From: Clostridia bacterium
GTDB lineage: Bacteria; Bacillota; Clostridia; RUG12999
DNA length: 37,061 bases
Reading direction: 5' to 3'
Assembly (NCBI GenBank): GCA_017396395.1
Contig: JAFQMF010000015.1
Location: 203,940 to 241,000 of the forward strand
The notes under the pieces were generated by a model. The model had not been told where the DNA came from, did no database searches, and saw nothing but the letters and a program-made list of their open reading frames with translations. Positions within the stretch are counted from its first letter, which is position 1. Every line of letters starts with the position of its first letter. Both the position numbers and the translations under genes were made by a program. Below, piece by piece: positions 25,364 through 37,061 of the stretch.

Positions 25364-26593
25364 ATGAATATCTATAGTGATATTGCAGAAAGAACTCAAG
25401 GGGATATATACATTGGCGTAGTAGGTCCTGTAAGAACAGGAAAATCAACCTTTATAAAGAAATTTATGGACACGATGGTTATCCCGAATATTGATAACGC
25501 ATTTAAGAAAGAAAGGGCAACTGACGAGCTTCCTCAAAGTGCCGCAGGAAAAACAATTATGACCACTGAGCCAAAATTTGTTCCAAATGAAGCGGTTAAT
25601 ATAAAATTTGGGGACGCTAACTGCAATATCCGTCTTATCGATTGTGTTGGGTATATGGTGGAAGGTGCAATCGGAGGGGTAGAGGAGGATATGCCCAGAA
25701 TGGTTCAGACGCCTTGGCATAATGAACCTATTCCTTTTAATGAAGCCGCTGAAACTGGTACAAGAAAGGTTATATGCGAACATTCAACAATTGGACTTGT
25801 TATTACAACAGACGGAAGTATTACAGAGCTTCCCAGAGAAGAGTATGAAAAGGCTGAAGAAAGAGTAATAAATGAGCTTAAAGAAATTAATAAGCCGTTT
25901 GTTCTTATTTTAAATACCGTTACTCCAAACAGCGAAAAGACTCTTAACCTAAAAGAGGATATGGAAAAAAAGTATGGTGTTCCTGTAGTTGTTTTGTCCT
26001 GTGCCGATATGACAGAAAAGGATTTTTCAAAAGTGCTAGAAAAGGTACTGTACGAATTTCCACTTACAGAAATCGGCATAGATTTTCCTTCATGGTTAGA
26101 GGTTCTTCCAACAGAGGATGAGCTTAAAAGGGGAATATATGACAGCATTATTGAAAGTCTTCGCTGTGTGCGTAAAATACGGGAGGCAATTGAGGCTTCC
26201 AAAAAAATTGAACAGTATGATTTTGCTAAGCAGGTTAATATTACAGGGGCGGATTTGGGCACAGGAAAAGTAAGAATATCTATAATTCCTCCAAGTGAGC
26301 TGTTTTATAATGTAATTTGCAGAGAAACAGGATTTAAAATTGATAATGAAGAAAAACTTTTGTCCCTTCTTATTGAATTAAAGGATGTAAAAAAACAGTT
26401 TGATAAATTTGAATACGCTTTAAAAGAGGTTGATGCAAAAGGCTACGGAATTGTTGCACCGACTATTGATGAGCTGTCCTTAGAAGAACCTGAAATAGTA
26501 AAACAGGGCAATCGTTTTGGGGTAAGACTTAAAGCGTCTGCACCTTCCATACATATAATGTGTAACAAACCCAAGTTCTTAAAAACCGCATAA
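25364..26593 (+). CDS. spoIVA: Stage IV sporulation protein A, C-terminally truncated
   Basis: SpoIVA is the ATP-hydrolysing cytoskeletal protein that coats the forespore and anchors the spore coat. The opening (DIAERTQGDIYIGVVGPVRTGKSTF) has Walker A GPVRTGKS at residues 21-28; DELPQSAAGKTIMTTEPKFVPN, LIDCVGY, GTRKVI-x-EHSTIG and EPEIVKQGNRFGVRLKASAPSIHIM all match the family closely. GGGAGGAG precedes the ATG. The protein stops at 409 residues. Homologues of about 490 residues continue after SAPSIH with a region ending in a Gly-rich, hydrophobic tail; here 12 unrelated residues (ending FLKTA) and a stop replace it. The missing part is needed in Bacillus for attachment to the forespore surface, so function is doubtful. 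The loss lies where accessory DNA begins. Confidence 0.9.
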   Translation: MNIYSDIAERTQGDIYIGVVGPVRTGKSTFIKKFMDTMVIPNIDNAFKKERATDELPQSAAGKTIMTTEPKFVPNEAVNIKFGDANCNIRLIDCVGYMVEGAIGGVEEDMPRMVQTPWHNEPIPFNEAAETGTRKVICEHSTIGLVITTDGSITELPREEYEKAEERVINELKEINKPFVLILNTVTPNSEKTLNLKEDMEKKYGVPVVVLSCADMTEKDFSKVLEKVLYEFPLTEIGIDFPSWLEVLPTEDELKRGIYDSIIESLRCVRKIREAIEASKKIEQYDFAKQVNITGADLGTGKVRISIIPPSELFYNVICRETGFKIDNEEKLLSLLIELKDVKKQFDKFEYALKEVDAKGYGIVAPTIDELSLEEPEIVKQGNRFGVRLKASAPSIHIMCNKPKFLKTA

Positions 26594-26606
26594 AATGGGC
26601 ATTTTA

Positions 26607-26639
26607 AAAAATCACAGACTGGTTAGGTCTGTGATTTTT
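26607..26639. terminator. Bidirectional terminator after truncated spoIVA
   Basis: A 13-bp stem AAAAATCACAGAC (26607-26619) with GTCTGTGATTTTT (26627-26639) and a 7-base loop. Its core AATCACAGAC/GTCTGTGATT is identical to the terminator at 27893-27930. Confidence 0.9.
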
Positions 26640-26734
26640 GCCATATTGTATACAAATTTCCACTAAAAAGAGTTTTACTCATTTAAGAAAAAACTATCGT
26701 AATTACAAAACTGTTTCTAATACGTTTTCATTCA

Positions 26735-26858: not shown

Positions 26859-27812
26859 CTATTTGTCAAATGTATATCTTTTTAAATAGTTTAGTTCATT
26901 ATCAGTTTTTTTGAGTAATGAAAGAAAATCATTGAAAGTATAAAACTTAATATCAAAGTCTACATTTAAATCAGAAAATAAAGTTTTTACAGGCTGCATA
27001 ACATTCATAAACTCATTAAACTCTGTGTGTTCGCAATTTTCTTCTCTGATATATCTAGCATAGGCATTAGGTGAAAGTCTGTCAGGAACAGGTAATGTCC
27101 ATACACAATTAATCAATGTGAGCTTCTTTATTGAACGCGATTCTTCACCTGCACAAGCAGAATAGCATGCCACAGTATGTTTAAACATTTGAAACGCATC
27201 ATATCTCGTCATTCTGCAAGGATACTCTTCTTTAACATCATCCGGATCGTCATAATCATTATAAAGAATCAATTCCTTAGCAATAGGTATAAATATCTCT
27301 GCACATTTCTTGTCGATATAGTTCTCAGGACACATATATTTGTACCTCAGATTACTTGGCTTGTTGAAAATCCATTCCATCATTTTCATTTCGCAAGCAA
27401 TTGCCTCTTCACTTTCTTCACAATACAAAAATGCATCTAGATTTGCCGGATTACCAGGAACAGTAGGCTTTAAAGTGTGATATTGTTTTTCAAATTCAAC
27501 TGAATAAACACCGTTTCCGATTCTTAGGTCTCCTGAATTGTTTCTGATGTATGCTGGTTTATTACCAAATAGATTATATGTAAGTGCGGACGAAGAACGC
27601 AAAGCATTCATTTTTCCGGAAGCAATTTCATTGCCTGAACCTTGACCATAAGCTATAAGAGCGTTATCGCCCATAGGTTCACATATATTATCTACCAAAT
27701 CAACCAAATAAAAAGAACGAGCATCGCTGGTGTTCTGAAAAATTTTATCTCCAATAACATCTTTGAAATTTTCCTTAATAAGAGTCATTATTTCTTTTGT
27801 ATATTTATCCAT
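26859..27812 (-). CDS. Putative PD-(D/E)XK nuclease (restriction-endonuclease-like)
   Basis: A 317-residue soluble protein without signal or membrane segments. The middle carries a plausible PD-(D/E)XK active site: D126 in NLDAFLYC, then E141-x-K143 in ACEMKMMEW, 14 residues later, with E108 upstream as a possible helix residue. A motif MNALRSSSALTYNLFGN (about residues 68-84) recalls the PGN_0703-type putative restriction endonucleases, which are about this size. No methyltransferase lies beside it. AGGAGA precedes the ATG on the minus strand, and the stop is followed by the palindrome and a terminator shared with spoIVA. It may be a defence nuclease or a solitary effector. Fold and role are inference from motifs. 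Confidence 0.55.
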   Translation of the reverse strand: MDKYTKEIMTLIKENFKDVIGDKIFQNTSDARSFYLVDLVDNICEPMGDNALIAYGQGSGNEIASGKMNALRSSSALTYNLFGNKPAYIRNNSGDLRIGNGVYSVEFEKQYHTLKPTVPGNPANLDAFLYCEESEEAIACEMKMMEWIFNKPSNLRYKYMCPENYIDKKCAEIFIPIAKELILYNDYDDPDDVKEEYPCRMTRYDAFQMFKHTVACYSACAGEESRSIKKLTLINCVWTLPVPDRLSPNAYARYIREENCEHTEFNEFMNVMQPVKTLFSDLNVDFDIKFYTFNDFLSLLKKTDNELNYLKRYTFDK

Positions 27813-28439: not shown

Positions 28440-28880
28440 ATGAATATCTATCTAAAAAGAATATTTTTAACAATATTTGTACTCTTGGTAATGGGCATAG
28501 CTTTTAGCGGTTGTAATTTCTCGATACCCGAAGTGGATGATAGTGAAGAAAGAACCTATGAGGACACAGTTTATGAGGTTGCGTATTCAGCAAGCAAAAA
28601 AGATGGGCTAAGAGCAAAAGTATACTATCGTTTTTTATTTGATGAAACTGATAAAAAAGTTTTGAGGTGTATACATTTAACAGCAGGCAATGGACGAACG
28701 ACAATTTTAAAAGGAACATATGAAGGAGATTTGAGTGAACAAATTAAAATAAAGTTCGATTCAGGTGTCGAAGAAATATACAAATTCGAAAATGAACATA
28801 TGGTAAGTGAAGACGGAAATGAAAGTTATTCAAAAACAAGTGTTCCGTCTGCAATAAATGATATTGTTCTTTGGGATTAA
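28440..28880 (+). CDS. Small lipoprotein of unknown function
   Basis: A 146-residue protein with a signal sequence: KR near the N-terminus, hydrophobic residues 8-22, and a lipobox AFSGC with Cys at about residue 25, so it should be lipid-anchored outside the membrane. The mature part is acidic and beta-rich, with no recognised domain. GAGGTGAAAAG precedes the ATG. It is the first gene after the rightward promoter and lies 58 bases before the XRE gene without a terminator, so it is likely co-transcribed with the defence-like genes. Whether it belongs to that system or was captured by it is unknown. Confidence 0.7.
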   Translation: MNIYLKRIFLTIFVLLVMGIAFSGCNFSIPEVDDSEERTYEDTVYEVAYSASKKDGLRAKVYYRFLFDETDKKVLRCIHLTAGNGRTTILKGTYEGDLSEQIKIKFDSGVEEIYKFENEHMVSEDGNESYSKTSVPSAINDIVLWD

Positions 28881-28938: not shown

Positions 28939-29229
28939 ATGTGTGAATCAATCAACGAAAACAAACGTGCAGAGTTAATCTCTATATTAGTTGAAAACTT
29001 GCCAGTATTCCGCGCAAAACTCGGAGCAACGCAAGATACATTTGCTCAACGCGTTGGCTTGACAAAAACTACACTCAATCACATAGAAAATTATAAAAAG
29101 GAACTTACTTGGAGTAATTTTATAACCATCATTCTTCTCCTTATGCAGAATGAAGATACAAAGCCATTAGTTGAAGTGATGGGGCTCTACCCCGAAGATT
29201 TGAAAAGTTTCTTGATGTTTCAGGAATAA
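28939..29229 (+). CDS. XRE-family helix-turn-helix regulator (HipB-like position)
   Basis: A 96-residue protein with a Cro/CI-type HTH (about residues 22-60): VFRAKLGATQDTFAQRVGLT, then the recognition helix KTTLNHIENYKK. The C-terminal tail includes GLYPEDLKSFLMFQE. GGAGG precedes the ATG. The HipA-like kinase starts 14 bases after its stop, the hipBA arrangement in which the HTH protein is antitoxin and operon repressor. It could bind the inverted repeats at 28267-28364, although no matching repeat lies directly before its own gene. The tail is longer than the HTH and could contact the kinase. Confidence 0.8.
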   Translation: MCESINENKRAELISILVENLPVFRAKLGATQDTFAQRVGLTKTTLNHIENYKKELTWSNFITIILLLMQNEDTKPLVEVMGLYPEDLKSFLMFQE

Positions 29230-29243
29230 GGAGGTGCTCTGTG

Positions 29244-30281
29244 ATGAATTTTTATATAATGTCAAAAGATGTTGCAGTTGCAAGATGGCAGAACAATAAT
29301 CTTGAAGTAATAAATGAAAAGATGTTACCTTTGTATCTGAAAAATACAGGTAATGTAGAGAAATGGTTAGAAACAAGAGCAATAGATTGCCACAGAGCAA
29401 ATTCCAGATTGTTAAAGAAAGCACTTCGCTTAACGGAAAAAGATGATACATCGACTGTTTTAGCAGTTAATGCTGCAACTATTACGGATAACTATTGGAT
29501 AAAACCGGTAGATTCAGATTTAAGCTATGAAGATGTTAGATTTGACAATGACTACTTCGCAAATCTTGCACTGACAGGAAACTACGACAGCTTCAACAGA
29601 GTTGCTAACAGCAAGAGTTCCAAGACTCCTGAGCTCACTAATATCGGAAGTTTTGAAAAGTGTTGGAAACTGAGAAAAGGTCAATGGTGGATGCACAAGA
29701 AAGCGAACCATGATGAAATGTTTTCAGAGTTGTTTATATATAAACTCGGAAGCGAACTTGGTTTCAAAATGGCTGAATATGAGCGTGGAAATGGCGTTAT
29801 TAAAACAAAGGATTTTACGAGCAATGCACTTGTTAATTTCGAACCTGCATTTAACATCTTAGGTGATGATGAAGATTATATCAAAACAGTTGAAATGCTT
29901 AAAGCTATTTGCCCAGATGCAGTTAGCGATTATGTAAAGATGTTATTCTTAGATACAATCTGTGCAAATCCTGATAGACACACTTTTAACTTCGGTGTTT
30001 TAAGAGATGCAGATACCGGCGAAATCTTAGGTTTAGCACCCAACTTTGATAACAATATGGCACTTATATCAAGAGGCTATCCAAAAAACATTACACGCAA
30101 GAATGACTTGCTGATTAAACTTTTCAACGAATTGATACAGTATGATGAAAGTCTTAAAAAGTACATTCCTACTCTTTCAGAAGATTTGATTAAAGAAGTA
30201 ATCAAATCTGTGGGAATGCGTGTAAAATCAAAAGAGATTACTCAGTTCATTATGAACGGATATATCCTCATAGAAAAGTAA
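29244..30281 (+). CDS. Compact HipA-like Ser/Thr kinase
   Basis: A 345-residue protein with the kinase core of the HipA superfamily. The conserved lysine region is MHKKAN (K152 or K153). The catalytic element is PDRH (D244) followed by TFNFG (N249), which mirrors HipA DRHxxNF, and the metal-binding Asp is D269 in NFDNNMA. It is shorter than E. coli HipA (440 residues), and I do not recognise a HipA N-terminal subdomain. AAGGAGG lies 9 bases before the ATG at 29244; a GTG at 29241 is an alternative. HipA kinases phosphorylate proteins such as glutamyl-tRNA synthetase; the target here is unknown. It sits between an XRE gene and the helicase gene, suggesting a toxin arm or regulator of the whole operon. 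Confidence 0.8.
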   Translation: MNFYIMSKDVAVARWQNNNLEVINEKMLPLYLKNTGNVEKWLETRAIDCHRANSRLLKKALRLTEKDDTSTVLAVNAATITDNYWIKPVDSDLSYEDVRFDNDYFANLALTGNYDSFNRVANSKSSKTPELTNIGSFEKCWKLRKGQWWMHKKANHDEMFSELFIYKLGSELGFKMAEYERGNGVIKTKDFTSNALVNFEPAFNILGDDEDYIKTVEMLKAICPDAVSDYVKMLFLDTICANPDRHTFNFGVLRDADTGEILGLAPNFDNNMALISRGYPKNITRKNDLLIKLFNELIQYDESLKKYIPTLSEDLIKEVIKSVGMRVKSKEITQFIMNGYILIEK

Positions 30282-30332: not shown

Positions 30333-33300
30333 ATGAACCCTATTGAAAATAAAAAAATAGAATATTGGAAAAGCCAACTTTTAGATACAGGCAAAAGAAA
30401 TAAGATGATTAATTACAGGGAAACATCCAGGGCAACATTGAAAATTATTGAGCCTGGATTAAATGAACTGTATGAAAATTATGTTCAAAATGAAAATGAG
30501 CTTACTTTTCAGTATCCAATAGATAAGGATTCTGATATACGCACATACTCTGTTTTGAAACTGCTTGACAAACTTTCATGCCCTATTCCTGTATTGCTTG
30601 GCGATATTAAAGTTGCTACATCTTTTCAAGAGAGCAAAAAGACTCTTAAAAATTTACGCAACAAATCTAGACTTGCCCAAGAGGAACAAGGTACGAACAT
30701 CCTTTATTTGTCTTTGGGGTTTATAGAATGGCAGGAGAATCATGGTTCTCATCATTCTTGGGTTAAATCACCGCTTATATTAGTACCGGTATCATTGACA
30801 GTAGAATCTCTTAATGCTCCTTATAAATTAGTAAGGTATGACGATGATGTTGTGGTCAATCCTACTTTGCAACATCTTTTATCCGCGGATTACGGCGTTG
30901 AATTGCCTCCTTTTGATTCGGATAAAGATACAATTGAGGATTATCTGAAATCACTTGAAGATATTGCCGATGAAAAAGGTTGGAGAATAATTCGAGAAGC
31001 AAGTATTGGATTATTATCTTTCCTAAAAATAAATATGTATAAAGACCTTGAACACAACATTGAAAACATTACGAACAATGTTGTGTTAAAAGCAATGCTC
31101 GGAGATACTTCTGAAATTACCAATATCCCCGAAGAATTAAAATCTTACAATCATGATGCATTAATACCCAAGGAATGTTTCCAGGTATTGAGTGCGGATT
31201 CAAGCCAACAAGATGCCATCGAGTTGTCAAAAAGAGGCGTCAGCTTTGTTATGCAAGGACCTCCTGGAACCGGCAAAAGTCAGACAATAACCAACATCAT
31301 AGCAGAAGCATTAGCATCTGATAAAAAGGTTTTATTTGTTTCAGAGAAAATGGCTGCTTTACAAGTGGTATATAAAAGATTATCAGACTTGGGACTGGCT
31401 GAGTTCTGTTTGGCTTTACATAGCCATAAAGCAAACAAAAAGCAAATTCTTGATGATATTCAGAACACGCTATCTTTAAAGAAAACTCGTGTAAAACAAG
31501 AAGCAATTGAAGAATTAGACAGACTTAATTTTGAAAGAACGGAATTGAACAAATATGCTACCGAATTGCATGAAGAAGTTGCTCCGTTAAATATTAGTTG
31601 TTATGATGCCTATGGTATTTTGGATAACCTTAAAAATGCATCAGACTCCCTCTTCTCCTTGGAAAATGTGGATGCTATTACACGAGAAACATTGAATGAG
31701 ATGATTTACAATCTGGAAAATCTCTCTAATTACATAAATAATTCAAATTTTGACATTGAAAATAATCCGTGGCTTGGAGTGGTAATAAATTCACTATCTC
31801 TTGATGACAAACAGGTAATTGATAATAATATTACTTTATCTGTTCAGTATTTAAAAGCTCTAACATCAAATCTTGGAGATTTAACGACTGAATATAATAT
31901 AGACACTCTTAATACACTTCAATCAATTAAAGGTTTGGTTGATTTTATAAAGACACTGTTACAAATATCTGTTACTCCTGAGATAATCTTTGATAACGAT
32001 AACATTAAAGATTTAGAAGAATTCACTCAAAAAGCTGCAGAACGCATATGTTCTTTGATAAAAGACCGAGAAATTGTAGATTCTTGGTTTTATTCTGATG
32101 TCTATAATGTTGATTTATCAAAAATCAAATCTGAAATCAATTCAAAAGTAGAGCAACTCAAAGAAGTACTAGACTCGTCAATTACAGACAATGTTGCAGA
32201 GAATATTGATAATTATTATGCTGATATATCTGATATTCTAAACAATATGACAAATGTCGTAAATCTTGCAAATAGCGACATGTCTTTGTTGTGCCTTAAT
32301 ATGCCTCTTACATTGACAAATTTAAGTGTTTTGCACGACCTTATTGTAGAATTAAAAACACAACCGTCTTGCCAAAAACAATGGTTTGATGCAAAGATTT
32401 TAGGCAGTGCTATCTTTAACATATCTAAATATAAAGAATTGTCATTTAAAATTAACTCCCTTAATAATGAAATATTGAGCAATTGGGAAAAAGAAATTTT
32501 TGATATTGAATATACAGAAATTCTTAATAGATTTAAAACCGATTATAAGAGCATTTTTAAAATCTTCAATTCTAATTATCGTGCAGATAAAAAAGCGGTT
32601 ATACGCAACTGTAAAGACCCTCTTGCCAAGATTAGTGACCAACAGATTGTAACTACACTTTTAAAAATCAAAGAGTTGAACGAATTAACAACCGAGCTTG
32701 CAAACAACAAATCCGCTATTGATGAAATGTATGGCAGTGCATTCTCTGGTACGAATACAGATTGGGAAGCTGTTTCATTAGATCTTTCTTCTCTTCAAAA
32801 AATACTTGCTTTATATCCTGATGCAAGTACGCAAAGTGAATTCAAAAACATCTTGATTAATAATGAATACGATAAATTATCAAGAATATTTGCAACCTTT
32901 GATGAATTATCATCTGAGAGAATTCAGTCGATATGTTCAACTTTCAATCGCTTATTCTTGAATAAGTTAAACTCTAATGAAGATTTAACTGATGTTATTT
33001 CTAAGATAAAATCCGCATTAGAAACTGTTGGTGAATTACAATCTCAGATTAAAGAATTAAAGGGAATTTATAAAGATACCGATTCTCATGTGGGTATATT
33101 TGTAAAACTTGAAAAAGCGATAGAATTACGTTCATCAGAAGATGTTTTAAAGAATGAGGAGCAGTTGTTCAAATCATATTATGCTGATTTATACAATTAC
33201 ACTTCAACAGATTGGAATGAAATTAAAAAGCATATTGATAACAAGAAGGAATTTGATCGTTTAGTCTCCACAAGCAATATTCCCAAACATTTCTTACGAA

Positions 33301-35846
33301 CTATTGCTACACATTCCGACAAACGAATTTACATAACAACTAAAACAGAAAATATAGAAAAAACTCTTCTTGATGTTAACAGATTGCAACCATTTTTCGA
33401 GAAGATTTTTGGAGAAACTGTATCCTCTCTATCTATTGATACACTTCAAGAAAAATATAGTAAATGTTCTGGAAAAGTTGAACTTCTTGAAAAATATCTC
33501 GAATATAAAACTTTCAGAGATAAATGTATAAGCTGTGGTCTGGAAGAATTCATTTTGCTAGTTGAAAAAGATGGCATTAAAGATGTTGTTGATAGTTTCA
33601 AAAAGCGTTTCTATATGCTTTGGTTAAGCAAAGTCTTGGATACAAAGCCATCAATTGCAAATTTCAAAGGTGTAACACATGATAAAACAGTAAGTGATTT
33701 CTGTATGCACGATGAACACCAGCTTTCAATTGCACGAATGAGAATCCGCGAAAAATTGATAAACAATTTACCTAGCAAAGATCGTCTTCTTTCAGCACAT
33801 GATGAAATGAGTATACTAACAAGGGAATTAGGCAAAAAACGCCGTATTATGCCAATTAGAAAATTGTTTAAAAGCATCCCTAATCTACTCATGAAAATCA
33901 AACCTTGCTTTATGATGTCGCCGTTATCGGTTTCGTATTTCTTAGAAGCACAAACATATGATTTTGATATGGTAATTTTTGACGAGGCATCACAGATATT
34001 CCCTGAGGATGCTATTGGAGCTATTTTAAGAAGTAAGCAGGTTATTATCGCAGGAGATACAAAACAATTGCCTCCTACCAACTTCTTTGCTTCAAGTGCA
34101 AATAATTTGGACGGACAATTTGATTCATCTGAGGACGAATATGAAGAGGAAATCTTTGATTCAATTCTTGAAGAAACTGCAAGTATATTGCCAAACAGAA
34201 CACTCCTTTGGCATTACAGAAGCAGACATGAAGATTTGATTGCATTTTCAAACAGCCACATATACAAAAATGAGCTTATCACATTCCCTGGAAGTGCGAT
34301 ATCAAAGAAAGATACTGGTGTAGAATACTACAAAGTTGCAGATGGTGTTTATGAAGACAGATGTAATATTTCGGAGGCAAAGAAATGTGTAGATTTAATT
34401 ATTGAACACATTAACAATTATCCGGATTTGTCTCTCGGTATTATTGCATTTAGTGAAAAACAACAATCCACCATCGAACAAGTTCTATATGAATACAGAG
34501 AGCAACATCCTCAGTATGAATGGTTCTTTGATGAAAATAAGGACGAGCCTTTCTTTATCAAAAACCTTGAAAATGTTCAAGGTGACGAAAGAGATACTAT
34601 CATTTTCAGTATATGTTATGCTAAAAACAGTCGTGGAACAATGCTAATGAACTTTGGTCCTCTTGGCAAGCAAGGTGGCGAAAGAAGATTAAATGTTGCG
34701 GTCACAAGAGCAAAGACCAACATCAAGCTCGTAGGTTCAATAGAACCAACAGACATTGACCTTGACAGAGCAAAAAGTGATGGTGCAAGGCTGCTTCGCT
34801 CATATATTGAATTTGCAATGAATGGTCCTTCTACTCTTCCTGCAAAACAGGAAGAAGCCATTGAAAACAGAGATGATTTCTGTGATTGCATTTATGATTT
34901 CTTAACATCAAATGGATTTAAGGTAGCCAGAAACATAGGATGCTCCGATTATAAAATAGATTTAGCGGTTGAACATCCTAAAAACAATGGTACTTTTGTT
35001 GCCGGAATCGAATGTGATGGCGAAAGTTATTCCTCAGCAAGAACAGCTCGTGAAAGAGACCATCTCCGCCCACAGATATTAAAAAATATGGGTTGGAACA
35101 TGTATCGTATTTGGTCAACTGCATGGATTAAAAACACCAACGATGAACAAGAAAGACTTTTAAACTTCATCAATGATTGTTTAAAACAAAATCCTCAACA
35201 GATGACACTAGAAGCAAATGAAACATATGATGTTCCGGTAGAAACTGTTGTAGAAGATAAATCAAAATCTTTTGCGCGTAATAATACTACAAATCCATAT
35301 GGATTCGGATATTATGTTGAAGCAAAATGGTGGGATGCTCCTCAAAATTATAGTTCGAGTAACGAGCAACGAGTAGCAGATGTAATCAACTATGTATTGG
35401 AGATTGAACAGCCTATTCATATAGATTTGCTTTATCAACGTTTAGCAGGATTGTTTGGCAGAGAAAAAGCAACATCTTATGTTCGTGAGCAGGTAGATTA
35501 TGTTCTTAATAGAACTCTTCGCAACTCTGTAAAAATAGAAGATGGTTTTGCTTCAAGAACTGATATGTCAGAAATCAAAGTCAGAGTAAGCAAAATCATT
35601 ACGGATGAGGCTCGAAAGGTTGAACATATATCACTTCCTGAAATCGGAAAAGCAATGATGATAATAGCTGAATACGCATTAGGAATTAATGAATCTGATT
35701 TAAAAGTTGAAACTGCAAGAATCTTTGGTTTTGAGCGAATGGGACCGAAGGTTACAAAAGCAATGAACGATGCATTTGTTAAACTTTTAAAATCCGGAAA
35801 GATAAAACTTATCGATGAAAAAGTACATATTGTGGAGGAATTATAA
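30333..35846 (+). CDS. DUF4011 - SF1 helicase - Vsr-like nuclease - DUF3320-like protein
   Basis: A 1837-residue cytosolic protein. The N-terminus (about 5-260) matches DUF4011: IEYWKSQLLDTGKRNKMINY. A superfamily 1 helicase follows: Walker A GPPGTGKS (309-316), motif II DEAS (1217-1220), motif III GDTKQLPP (1241-1248), motif V VQGDERD (1415-1421) and motif VI VAVTRAK (1455-1461). About 870 residues of acidic, helical sequence separate motifs I and II. Next is a Vsr/MTES_1575-type endonuclease region with D1543, E1560-C-D1562 and MGWNMYRIWSTAW (about 1587-1599). The end (about 1690-1825) resembles DUF3320, including LPEIGKAMMIIAEYALGI and ARIFGFERMG. This layout is known in antiphage proteins (Hhe type, from memory). 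GAGGTGG precedes the ATG; the stop overlaps the kinase start. All key motifs are intact. Confidence 0.88.
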   Translation: MNPIENKKIEYWKSQLLDTGKRNKMINYRETSRATLKIIEPGLNELYENYVQNENELTFQYPIDKDSDIRTYSVLKLLDKLSCPIPVLLGDIKVATSFQESKKTLKNLRNKSRLAQEEQGTNILYLSLGFIEWQENHGSHHSWVKSPLILVPVSLTVESLNAPYKLVRYDDDVVVNPTLQHLLSADYGVELPPFDSDKDTIEDYLKSLEDIADEKGWRIIREASIGLLSFLKINMYKDLEHNIENITNNVVLKAMLGDTSEITNIPEELKSYNHDALIPKECFQVLSADSSQQDAIELSKRGVSFVMQGPPGTGKSQTITNIIAEALASDKKVLFVSEKMAALQVVYKRLSDLGLAEFCLALHSHKANKKQILDDIQNTLSLKKTRVKQEAIEELDRLNFERTELNKYATELHEEVAPLNISCYDAYGILDNLKNASDSLFSLENVDAITRETLNEMIYNLENLSNYINNSNFDIENNPWLGVVINSLSLDDKQVIDNNITLSVQYLKALTSNLGDLTTEYNIDTLNTLQSIKGLVDFIKTLLQISVTPEIIFDNDNIKDLEEFTQKAAERICSLIKDREIVDSWFYSDVYNVDLSKIKSEINSKVEQLKEVLDSSITDNVAENIDNYYADISDILNNMTNVVNLANSDMSLLCLNMPLTLTNLSVLHDLIVELKTQPSCQKQWFDAKILGSAIFNISKYKELSFKINSLNNEILSNWEKEIFDIEYTEILNRFKTDYKSIFKIFNSNYRADKKAVIRNCKDPLAKISDQQIVTTLLKIKELNELTTELANNKSAIDEMYGSAFSGTNTDWEAVSLDLSSLQKILALYPDASTQSEFKNILINNEYDKLSRIFATFDELSSERIQSICSTFNRLFLNKLNSNEDLTDVISKIKSALETVGELQSQIKELKGIYKDTDSHVGIFVKLEKAIELRSSEDVLKNEEQLFKSYYADLYNYTSTDWNEIKKHIDNKKEFDRLVSTSNIPKHFLRTIATHSDKRIYITTKTENIEKTLLDVNRLQPFFEKIFGETVSSLSIDTLQEKYSKCSGKVELLEKYLEYKTFRDKCISCGLEEFILLVEKDGIKDVVDSFKKRFYMLWLSKVLDTKPSIANFKGVTHDKTVSDFCMHDEHQLSIARMRIREKLINNLPSKDRLLSAHDEMSILTRELGKKRRIMPIRKLFKSIPNLLMKIKPCFMMSPLSVSYFLEAQTYDFDMVIFDEASQIFPEDAIGAILRSKQVIIAGDTKQLPPTNFFASSANNLDGQFDSSEDEYEEEIFDSILEETASILPNRTLLWHYRSRHEDLIAFSNSHIYKNELITFPGSAISKKDTGVEYYKVADGVYEDRCNISEAKKCVDLIIEHINNYPDLSLGIIAFSEKQQSTIEQVLYEYREQHPQYEWFFDENKDEPFFIKNLENVQGDERDTIIFSICYAKNSRGTMLMNFGPLGKQGGERRLNVAVTRAKTNIKLVGSIEPTDIDLDRAKSDGARLLRSYIEFAMNGPSTLPAKQEEAIENRDDFCDCIYDFLTSNGFKVARNIGCSDYKIDLAVEHPKNNGTFVAGIECDGESYSSARTARERDHLRPQILKNMGWNMYRIWSTAWIKNTNDEQERLLNFINDCLKQNPQQMTLEANETYDVPVETVVEDKSKSFARNNTTNPYGFGYYVEAKWWDAPQNYSSSNEQRVADVINYVLEIEQPIHIDLLYQRLAGLFGREKATSYVREQVDYVLNRTLRNSVKIEDGFASRTDMSEIKVRVSKIITDEARKVEHISLPEIGKAMMIIAEYALGINESDLKVETARIFGFERMGPKVTKAMNDAFVKLLKSGKIKLIDEKVHIVEEL

Positions 35847-37061
35847 TGAGTAACGAAACAATGATAAACCCTATTAACAATTCAAGCAGTACTGTGATAA
35901 ATTCTGAATTGCAGTCAAATAATGCAACTGTAATCAATACAGAGATTAGCAATTTAAGTAATATTGCAGAGGGAACTACCCTTTGTGACAAATATACAGT
36001 TGTAAGCAAGCTCGACATCAACACCGGCGAGGCTGATTTGTATGTTTGTGATTACAACAGTGAAAAGTTTATTGCCAAAATTTACAGAAGAAAATTTGCA
36101 ATAAAACCGGAAGTAACAAATATCTTAAAACAAATTGATTCTCCATATATTGCGAAACTTTATGAAACCGGAACAATCAATGGAATGCCTTTTGAAATAT
36201 TACCTTACTACAAAAATGGCAGTATTCAGGGAAGAAAATTTACTTATGAGGAATTAAAAAACAACATCATTCCTTGCATCAATGCAGGTCTTAAAGCTTT
36301 GCACGATAAGGAAATCATACATAAGGACTTAAAACCTTCTAACATTATGCTTTGCGATAATGGTAAAGATGTTGCAATTATTGACTTTGGTATCAGTTCT
36401 GTTCGTGAAGCCGGCAATACCGTTGTAATGACACGCACAGGTATGACACCTGAATATTCTGCACCCGAAACATTCAGAAATCTGTTCTTAACCGAATCAG
36501 ACTATTATTCCTTTGGTGTAACTGTATTTGAATTGTTCTGTGGTTTTACTCCGTATGCTCATATGTCACCTGATGAAATCGAAAAATATACATCAGTACA
36601 AAGAATCCCTGTGCCAAAAGATATGCCAACAGAGCTTGCAGACTTTATCAATGCTCTCACATATTATGATATAACAAACCGTAAGAACAAAGATAACCCC
36701 AACAGAAGATGGACTTATGAAGAGGTTAGAAACTGGTGCGCAGGCAAAAAGCAAACGATTCCCGGCGAAAGTATTGGTAATGGACGTGTAGATATGAAAC
36801 CGTATAACTTCAAGGGGAAGGATTTCACAGATACACACGGTCTTGTTGTTGAACTTGCTACGTACTGGAATGATGGTAAAAAAGAACTGTTCAGAGGTTA
36901 TCTCGCTCCGCACTTTGCAAACAGTTCAAATCAAAAGTGCGCAAGAGTGTGTGATGATGCCGAGGAAGAAGCAAGAAAAGGTACAAAGAGTGATGATTTG
37001 ATTTTCTGGTCAACAATATACAGACTTGCTCCTGAACTCAAAACATTCTATTGGAAAGGCA
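35846..37061 (+). CDS. Hanks-type Ser/Thr protein kinase with C-terminal extension (3' end outside window)
   Basis: At least 405 residues. After an Asn/Ser/Thr-rich, probably disordered N-terminus (about 1-45, with TVIN twice) comes a full kinase domain: Gly-loop region LDINTGEADLY, ATP-binding K78 in FIAKIY, catalytic HKDLKPSN (159-166), DFG (180-182) and APE (206-208). The catalytic HRD is HKD, which is functional in many kinases. The domain ends near residue 285. A further region with ELATYWNDGKKELFRGYLAPHF and a CDDAEEEARKG stretch belongs to no family I can name; the frame is still open at the last base. No membrane span precedes it, so the protein is probably cytosolic. Its ATG overlaps the helicase stop by one base, so the two proteins are made together. 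Confidence 0.88.
   Translation, partial: MSNETMINPINNSSSTVINSELQSNNATVINTEISNLSNIAEGTTLCDKYTVVSKLDINTGEADLYVCDYNSEKFIAKIYRRKFAIKPEVTNILKQIDSPYIAKLYETGTINGMPFEILPYYKNGSIQGRKFTYEELKNNIIPCINAGLKALHDKEIIHKDLKPSNIMLCDNGKDVAIIDFGISSVREAGNTVVMTRTGMTPEYSAPETFRNLFLTESDYYSFGVTVFELFCGFTPYAHMSPDEIEKYTSVQRIPVPKDMPTELADFINALTYYDITNRKNKDNPNRRWTYEEVRNWCAGKKQTIPGESIGNGRVDMKPYNFKGKDFTDTHGLVVELATYWNDGKKELFRGYLAPHFANSSNQKCARVCDDAEEEARKGTKSDDLIFWSTIYRLAPELKTFYWKG

Follow-up and report, generated by a model that had tools for sequence, protein, structure and literature searches.

The spoIVA gene of a Clostridia bacterium is split by an island that is very probably an intervening element of the skin/gin type

Has a spoIVA gene that ends early, exactly where accessory DNA begins, been destroyed by the insertion, or is it interrupted in a way that sporulating cells can undo? 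The question is raised by the stretch of DNA analyzed here (the window; 37,061 nucleotides, the last 37 kb of contig C12 of genome G000, with C12 ending at window position 37061). The window genome amounts to 1.28 Mb in 19 contigs and is 92.6% complete. SpoIVA is a mother-cell protein that is produced under sigma-E and that C. sporogenes requires to form resistant spores, and its C-terminal domain has been implicated in SpoVM binding (PMC11076785). Of ten coat proteins of the basement layer, it is reported to be the only one present in all bacilli and clostridia (PMC3533761). In the window, the gene and the left end of the island comprise the following features.

25364-26593, + strand: spoIVA open reading frame including the foreign tail, 409 aa
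25364..26554, + strand: host-derived 5' part of spoIVA, encoding the ATPase and middle domains up to SAPSIH (TIGR02836, PF09547, PF20438)
26555..26593, + strand: element-derived tail IMCNKPKFLKTA (12 residues) and stop codon TAA, part of attL; the tail is the same or similar in nine genomes
26607..26641, + strand: hairpin followed by a T run, resembling a terminator, at the element's left boundary; a similar inverted repeat is found in other left ends

In profile searches, residues 2-399 of the window SpoIVA matched positions 5-403 of the 492 positions of TIGR02836 (spore_IV_A), with the Pfam domains SpoIVA_ATPase and SpoIVA_middle present and SpoIVA_C absent, and the hairpin region (26590-26650) has a predicted fold of -21.9 kcal/mol. 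The profiles and the fold confirm what had been read from the window sequence alone, namely, a SpoIVA match that holds up to SAPSIH and then gives way to 12 foreign residues ending in a stop, with a terminator behind it. The same sequence-only reading put the loss at 70-80 residues, which is too low: compared with the 488-aa SpoIVA of the same genus, 91 residues are missing. The possibility that a short SpoIVA is the normal state of the relatives was considered and rejected; the protein is full-length in the island-free same-genus genomes G001-G003 and in others. The IMCNKPKFLKTA tail is no more than the element's side of the attachment site; conservation of this DNA site accounts for the conserved tail of the closest elements, and the tail differs in the others. 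Just upstream of spoIVA and outside the element, the window encodes a protein similar to P22-like portals (PF16510; 23512-25161, - strand). Because its homologues adjoin spoIVA in three same-genus genomes (69-73% identity), this protein is a long-standing neighbor of spoIVA rather than part of the island.

The missing 3' fragment, expected elsewhere in the genome if accessory DNA had been inserted into spoIVA, was indeed found there, intact and beside the island's recombinase: a SpoIVA_C search of the window genome gave a single match, at the start of contig C8. First on this contig is the end of a large serine recombinase (LSR) gene, encoding the C-terminal 131 aa (L033:1-396, 75% identical to the LSR of G358); a spacer and then the spoIVA C-part follow. 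The right junction on C8 reads ...ACTTGGGTTTGTAGCGAGTAATACAT ATGATTAAAGCC..., which is the spoIVA C-part and runs to the normal stop. Only one N-part and one C-part of spoIVA are present in the window genome, and a genome-wide search detected no second intact copy. Joined at ATACAT, the two halves read ...SAPSIH-MIKAQIETEVSPIVG..., with 91 residues as in the 488-aa same-genus protein. We infer that one element starts on C12 and finishes on C8, a link made across a gap between contigs that do not overlap. The contig break in G000 falls inside the LSR gene, and the N-terminal part of this LSR was not found in the window assembly.

The sequences indicate that islands of this kind split spoIVA, always at the same codon, in 12 genomes at least and probably in 16. 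Both halves were detected in 12 (G000, G026, G358, G361, G391, G395, G307, G140, G202, G241, G365 and G066), and one end in four more: the left end in G392, G393 and G394, in whose assemblies no spoIVA C-part was found, and the right end in G533, where the examination covered that end. The whole interrupted gene resides on one contig in seven genomes (G026, G307, G140, G202, G241, G365 and G066), with inserts of 5.9-39.4 kb, and in G358, the arrangement is on one contig up to the contig end inside the C-part. G026, which belongs to another family of the same class, has the same truncated tail; its C-part follows on that contig at a distance of 21.9 kb and is directly preceded by a complete 550-aa LSR. 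In G533, a member of another class from the phylum sample (L145), the LSR gene overlaps the spoIVA C-part in another frame.

Searching 391 genomes of the class with the left-junction pattern also retrieved G358 and G361, together with two matches (G220 and G115) that lie outside spoIVA and hence are due to chance. The degenerate form of the pattern, for which fewer than one chance match was estimated in the GTDB genome set, identified eight loci there, each of them where a truncated SpoIVA ends; the records describe MAGs of Oscillospiraceae, Clostridia or Ruminococcus, of which three come from the gut of goat, sheep and roe deer. An LSR search of the class sample yielded G307 and five genomes of one genus, g28, which we take to be Ruminiclostridium (G140, with a dockerin-bearing GH53-type enzyme in its element, presumably is R. 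cellulolyticum H10); spoIVA is split in five of the seven g28 genomes sampled and intact in two.

With the window contig ending inside the island and the C-part located on another contig, the split could be attributed to faulty assembly or binning, that is, to a false join or to a C8 that comes from another organism. However, eight public assemblies, made independently, have this same junction, which excludes an assembly join there, a doubt attached to the sequence-only reading. The whole arrangement is also present in the single-contig genomes G140 and G202, and the C-part on C8 is closest to the same genus, with 2-6 nonsynonymous differences. We therefore assign an artefact a negligible probability.

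The boundaries of the element define its attachment sites, represented in the window by three features.

26549..26554, + strand: recombination core ATACAT, common to attL and attR
26552-26553, + strand: predicted crossover dinucleotide CA, the center of the attP dyad in 12/12 elements
26565..26576, + strand: attP left arm ACAAACCCAAGT, matched in inverse form by ACTTGGGTTTGT in the right end (L033, about 549-560)

The ATACAT core is common to both halves in all 12 pairs, and the halves, joined there, restore SpoIVA in frame and to the length of the family, which speaks against the earlier expectation of either damage or a fused but working end. Outside the core, the left junction of G392-G394 reads ATTCAT, and the right junction of G358 continues with CTT after the core. 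Because the host-derived bases differ on the outer sides of the core, the crossover is predicted to fall within CAT. The rebuilt attP is an imperfect inverted repeat centered on CA in 12/12 elements, with 17-22 of 26 positions matching compared with 15 or fewer for other centers. The arms of attP co-vary, being ACTTGGGTTTG/CAAACCCAAGT in one group and ACTTCTGTTTG/CAAACAGAAGT in the g28 group, with a mixed pair in G358. An inverted-repeat site with a central dinucleotide is the structure described for serine integrases (PMC5595907). Insertion into spoIVA by site-specific recombination is close to certain.

An LSR was found in 11 genomes, in a search that covered G392-G394 in part, with the C-terminal fragment at the right end of the window element. 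The two LSRs that were scanned, those of G358 (576 aa) and G026, consist of PF00239 (Resolvase) followed by PF07508 (Recombinase), and the full-length LSRs of the spoIVA elements are 49-96% identical to each other. The distribution of this LSR type points to a partnership with the split gene: it was detected in 9 of the 391 class genomes and 1 of the 398 phylum genomes, two surveys that overlap in part, and spoIVA is split in all ten, whereas the LSRs of same-genus relatives whose spoIVA is intact are all distant ones (38% identity or less). The LSR is not always beside attR, given that in G361 it is on a separate contig and that none of this type was found in G395. In G361 (L057, C52; L143, C144) and in G395 (L075), the gene at attR is another cargo gene instead, so that right ends, too, are exchanged.

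Upstream of the LSR, nine elements contain an ORF of 48-61 aa that resembles E.K..(I/V)N..L(F/Y)...(I/V)(T/S)E.MY..AK and that, because of its position and conservation, is a candidate recombination directionality factor. When the regions before spoIVA, the LSR and the small ORF were footprinted, conserved blocks appeared, with no clear sigma-E/K consensus. Three g28 genomes have a sigma-A-like promoter before the LSR; that sequence is missing in G140.

Taken together, these features make it very probable that the island is a spoIVA-intervening element of the skin/gin type, that is, an LSR-inserted island whose excision in the mother cell rebuilds spoIVA. Such an island would enter spoIVA by means of its own LSR, at the codons for Ile-His in SAPSIH(M/L)I, a highly conserved motif, and as long as it stays in place, the cell could make only a truncated SpoIVA that lacks the C-terminal domain. 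In the sporulating mother cell, the LSR, probably helped by the adjacent protein of about 50 aa, would recombine attL and attR at CA, the island would leave as a circle, and full-length spoIVA would be restored. Because the DNA of the mother cell is not inherited, excision confined to this cell would restore SpoIVA while the spore keeps the element. We favor a removable element over damage because the halves rejoin in frame and because, in related genes, the detached half is under purifying selection.

The evidence of selection comes from the g28 elements. Among the four closest split g28 species, which differ at up to half of their synonymous sites, the C-part has accumulated 0-1 nonsynonymous vs 11-29 synonymous changes (dN/dS of 0.01 or less), and the N-part 5-22 nonsynonymous vs 40-101 synonymous changes; dN/dS in these elements is about 0.05-0.09 for the LSR and about 0.12-0.23 for the AgrB cargo. 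Because of its very low dN/dS, the C-part must be needed and still used in these related elements. This result bears directly on the possibility that the insertion broke spoIVA permanently, leaving two relics and a bacterium that makes no normal spores. A SpoIVA without its SpoVM-binding C-terminal domain should fail, the gene being essential in C. sporogenes (PMC11076785), the window genome is small, and recent insertions, such as that in the window, are too young for selection after the insertion to be measured. However, apart from the very strong purifying selection on the detached half, which also contradicts the damage suggested from the window alone, the halves rejoin exactly in every one of the 12 genomes, neither has decayed, and sigF, sigE, sigG and sigK are retained in the window genome. 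A permanently broken gene is, accordingly, improbable.

Another conceivable arrangement is that SpoIVA works as two polypeptides, with a C-terminal fragment of 91-97 aa translated separately from the truncated N-part. The C-part does open as an ORF with an alternative start, and in g28, it overlaps the LSR stop, so that translational coupling is conceivable. Yet none of the 12 genomes has a ribosome-binding site before the C-part, where matches do not exceed three of six positions, the level of random sequence, whereas N-parts with a readable start have a ribosome-binding site with 5-6 of 6 matches; for this reason, translation of the C-part on its own is unlikely. In G358, furthermore, the first codon past the junction is CTT, not ATG, and two separate polypeptides would leave the retention of the core, the symmetry of attP and the LSR unexplained. 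We consider this arrangement highly improbable, and rejoining by excision remains the preferred reading.

The cargo of the window element consists of the following genes.

26859..27812, - strand: REase-ARP-like protein (PF22558, E 1.4e-06)
28440..28880, + strand: small protein with a lipoprotein-like N-terminus and no family match
28939..29229, + strand: HipB-like regulator (HTH_3, weak HipB matches), with close homologues in other spoIVA elements
29241..30281, + strand: HipA-like protein (PF07804 below the cut-off), 87% nucleotide identity with the G361 copy
30333..35846, + strand: ProA/PDC-S37-like helicase-nuclease, candidate anti-phage protein (NF058533, 1296 bits with a cut-off of 1500; PDC-S37, 1401 bits)
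35846..37061, + strand: protein kinase, cut by the contig end (PADLOC matches to mad6 and PD-T4-6)

Several spoIVA elements in different hosts (L053, L062, L065) also have a HipB-like/HipA-like pair close to their left end, perhaps an addiction or defense module. Other elements carry other genes: a polysaccharide-synthesis cluster in G026 (L039-L040) and G307 (L139-L140), which represent two different families; methyltransferase-like and restriction-like genes, judged by eye, in G358; agrB, a GHKL-type sensor kinase and the dockerin-bearing galactanase-like (GH53-type) enzyme in the elements of about 6 kb of G140, G202, G241 and G365 (L132-L135); and mixed genes in the 39-kb element of G066. 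No phage structural or replication genes were recognized in the gene lists of G000 (by profiles), G026, G358, G307, G140 and G066. A phage origin was considered and rejected: among viral contigs, the attL pattern occurs in two unrelated ones, and the best phage match to the LSR is 45% identical over part of the protein.

Over its first 60 nucleotides, the window element matches the G392 element exactly and the G361 element at 93% identity, while the host spoIVA genes in this comparison are only about 50% identical in ungapped alignment, which gives lower bounds where indels differ, in G391 especially. Together with the variation in cargo, this similarity is a clear sign of horizontal spread. 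The four g28 elements, by comparison, are best explained by vertical descent because they share the same cargo order and have diverged about as far as the host gene has.

Spreading horizontally with varied cargo is what an ordinary mobile island would do, with spoIVA as a mere integration site, random excision for transfer, and sporulation achieved by the few cells that had lost the island. The lack of a recognized developmental promoter and the sigma-A-like sequence before three g28 LSRs agree with this interpretation. In contrast, the vertical descent in four g28 species and the strong selection on the C-part do not, and in C. difficile, constitutive expression of an LSR is compatible with developmental excision through a directionality factor (PMC5025042). 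All considered, an island of this ordinary kind seems unlikely, and we retain the developmentally excised element as the explanation.

A broader proposal, for which we see the case as evenly balanced, is that islands have long and widely used spoIVA for docking: through a single LSR family, SpoIVA, an essential coat morphogen, would have come to depend on programmed DNA excision at the sigma-E stage in many Clostridia and in one or more genomes of another class. The platform would swap defense, capsule and quorum-sensing cargo, and in the cellulosomal Ruminiclostridium-like species, the element would have been reduced to a vertically kept developmental switch of about 6 kb. If spoIVA is split and rebuilt by excision, gene surgery in sporulation reaches an essential, early step, and any annotation or sporulation predictor that counts the spoIVA of such a genome as missing or truncated is wrong. 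This would apply to the spoIVA annotation gap of C. cellulolyticum H10, probably our G140. A further outcome is a recombinase family whose attB and attP sites, located in a conserved gene, are defined.

The reported targets of intervening elements include sigK, spsM, spoVFB, gerE and yabG. We found no published spoIVA-intervening element in the openly licensed literature, and an older description in a subscription journal is possible. Galperin et al. 2012 list spoIVA among the genes omitted from the annotation of C. cellulolyticum H10, in passages that mention no insertion (PMC3533761). SPbeta in spsM (PMC4191935), vfbin in spoVFB and yin in yabG (PMC10747680) resemble the spoIVA elements in that a sporulation gene is interrupted and is rebuilt, or proposed to be rebuilt, by site-specific excision, but these are prophages or prophage-like, have other target genes, and none has been reported in spoIVA.

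The skin elements in sigK (recombinases SpoIVCA in B. subtilis and CD1231 in C. difficile) are likewise LSR-carrying and interrupt a mother-cell sporulation gene that is rejoined by excision (PMC5025042), the LSRs of skin and of the spoIVA elements being likened here by description, not by sequence. The separate small directionality factor of the C. difficile skin, CD1234 (PMC5025042), has a possible counterpart in the candidate ORF of the spoIVA elements, which differs in being next to the LSR and about 50 aa long. Furthermore, skin is prophage-like and resides in a sigma-factor gene, whereas the spoIVA elements have no recognized phage genes.

Also similar is gin in gerE of Bacillus cereus ATCC10987: like the spoIVA elements, it is a non-phage island that splits a sporulation gene rejoined in frame, employs serine recombination with a short core and an inverted-repeat att site centered on a dinucleotide, and carries restriction-modification cargo (PMC5595907). 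The two differ in that gin targets a late gene of the sigma-K stage, whereas spoIVA belongs to the sigma-E stage, and in that gin has three recombinases, compared with one typical LSR and the conserved ORF of about 50 aa in the spoIVA elements (PMC5595907). Excision of gin has been demonstrated by experiment (PMC5595907), and that of the spoIVA elements, inferred from the paired attachment sites and halves, would add an essential early gene to those rebuilt in this way.
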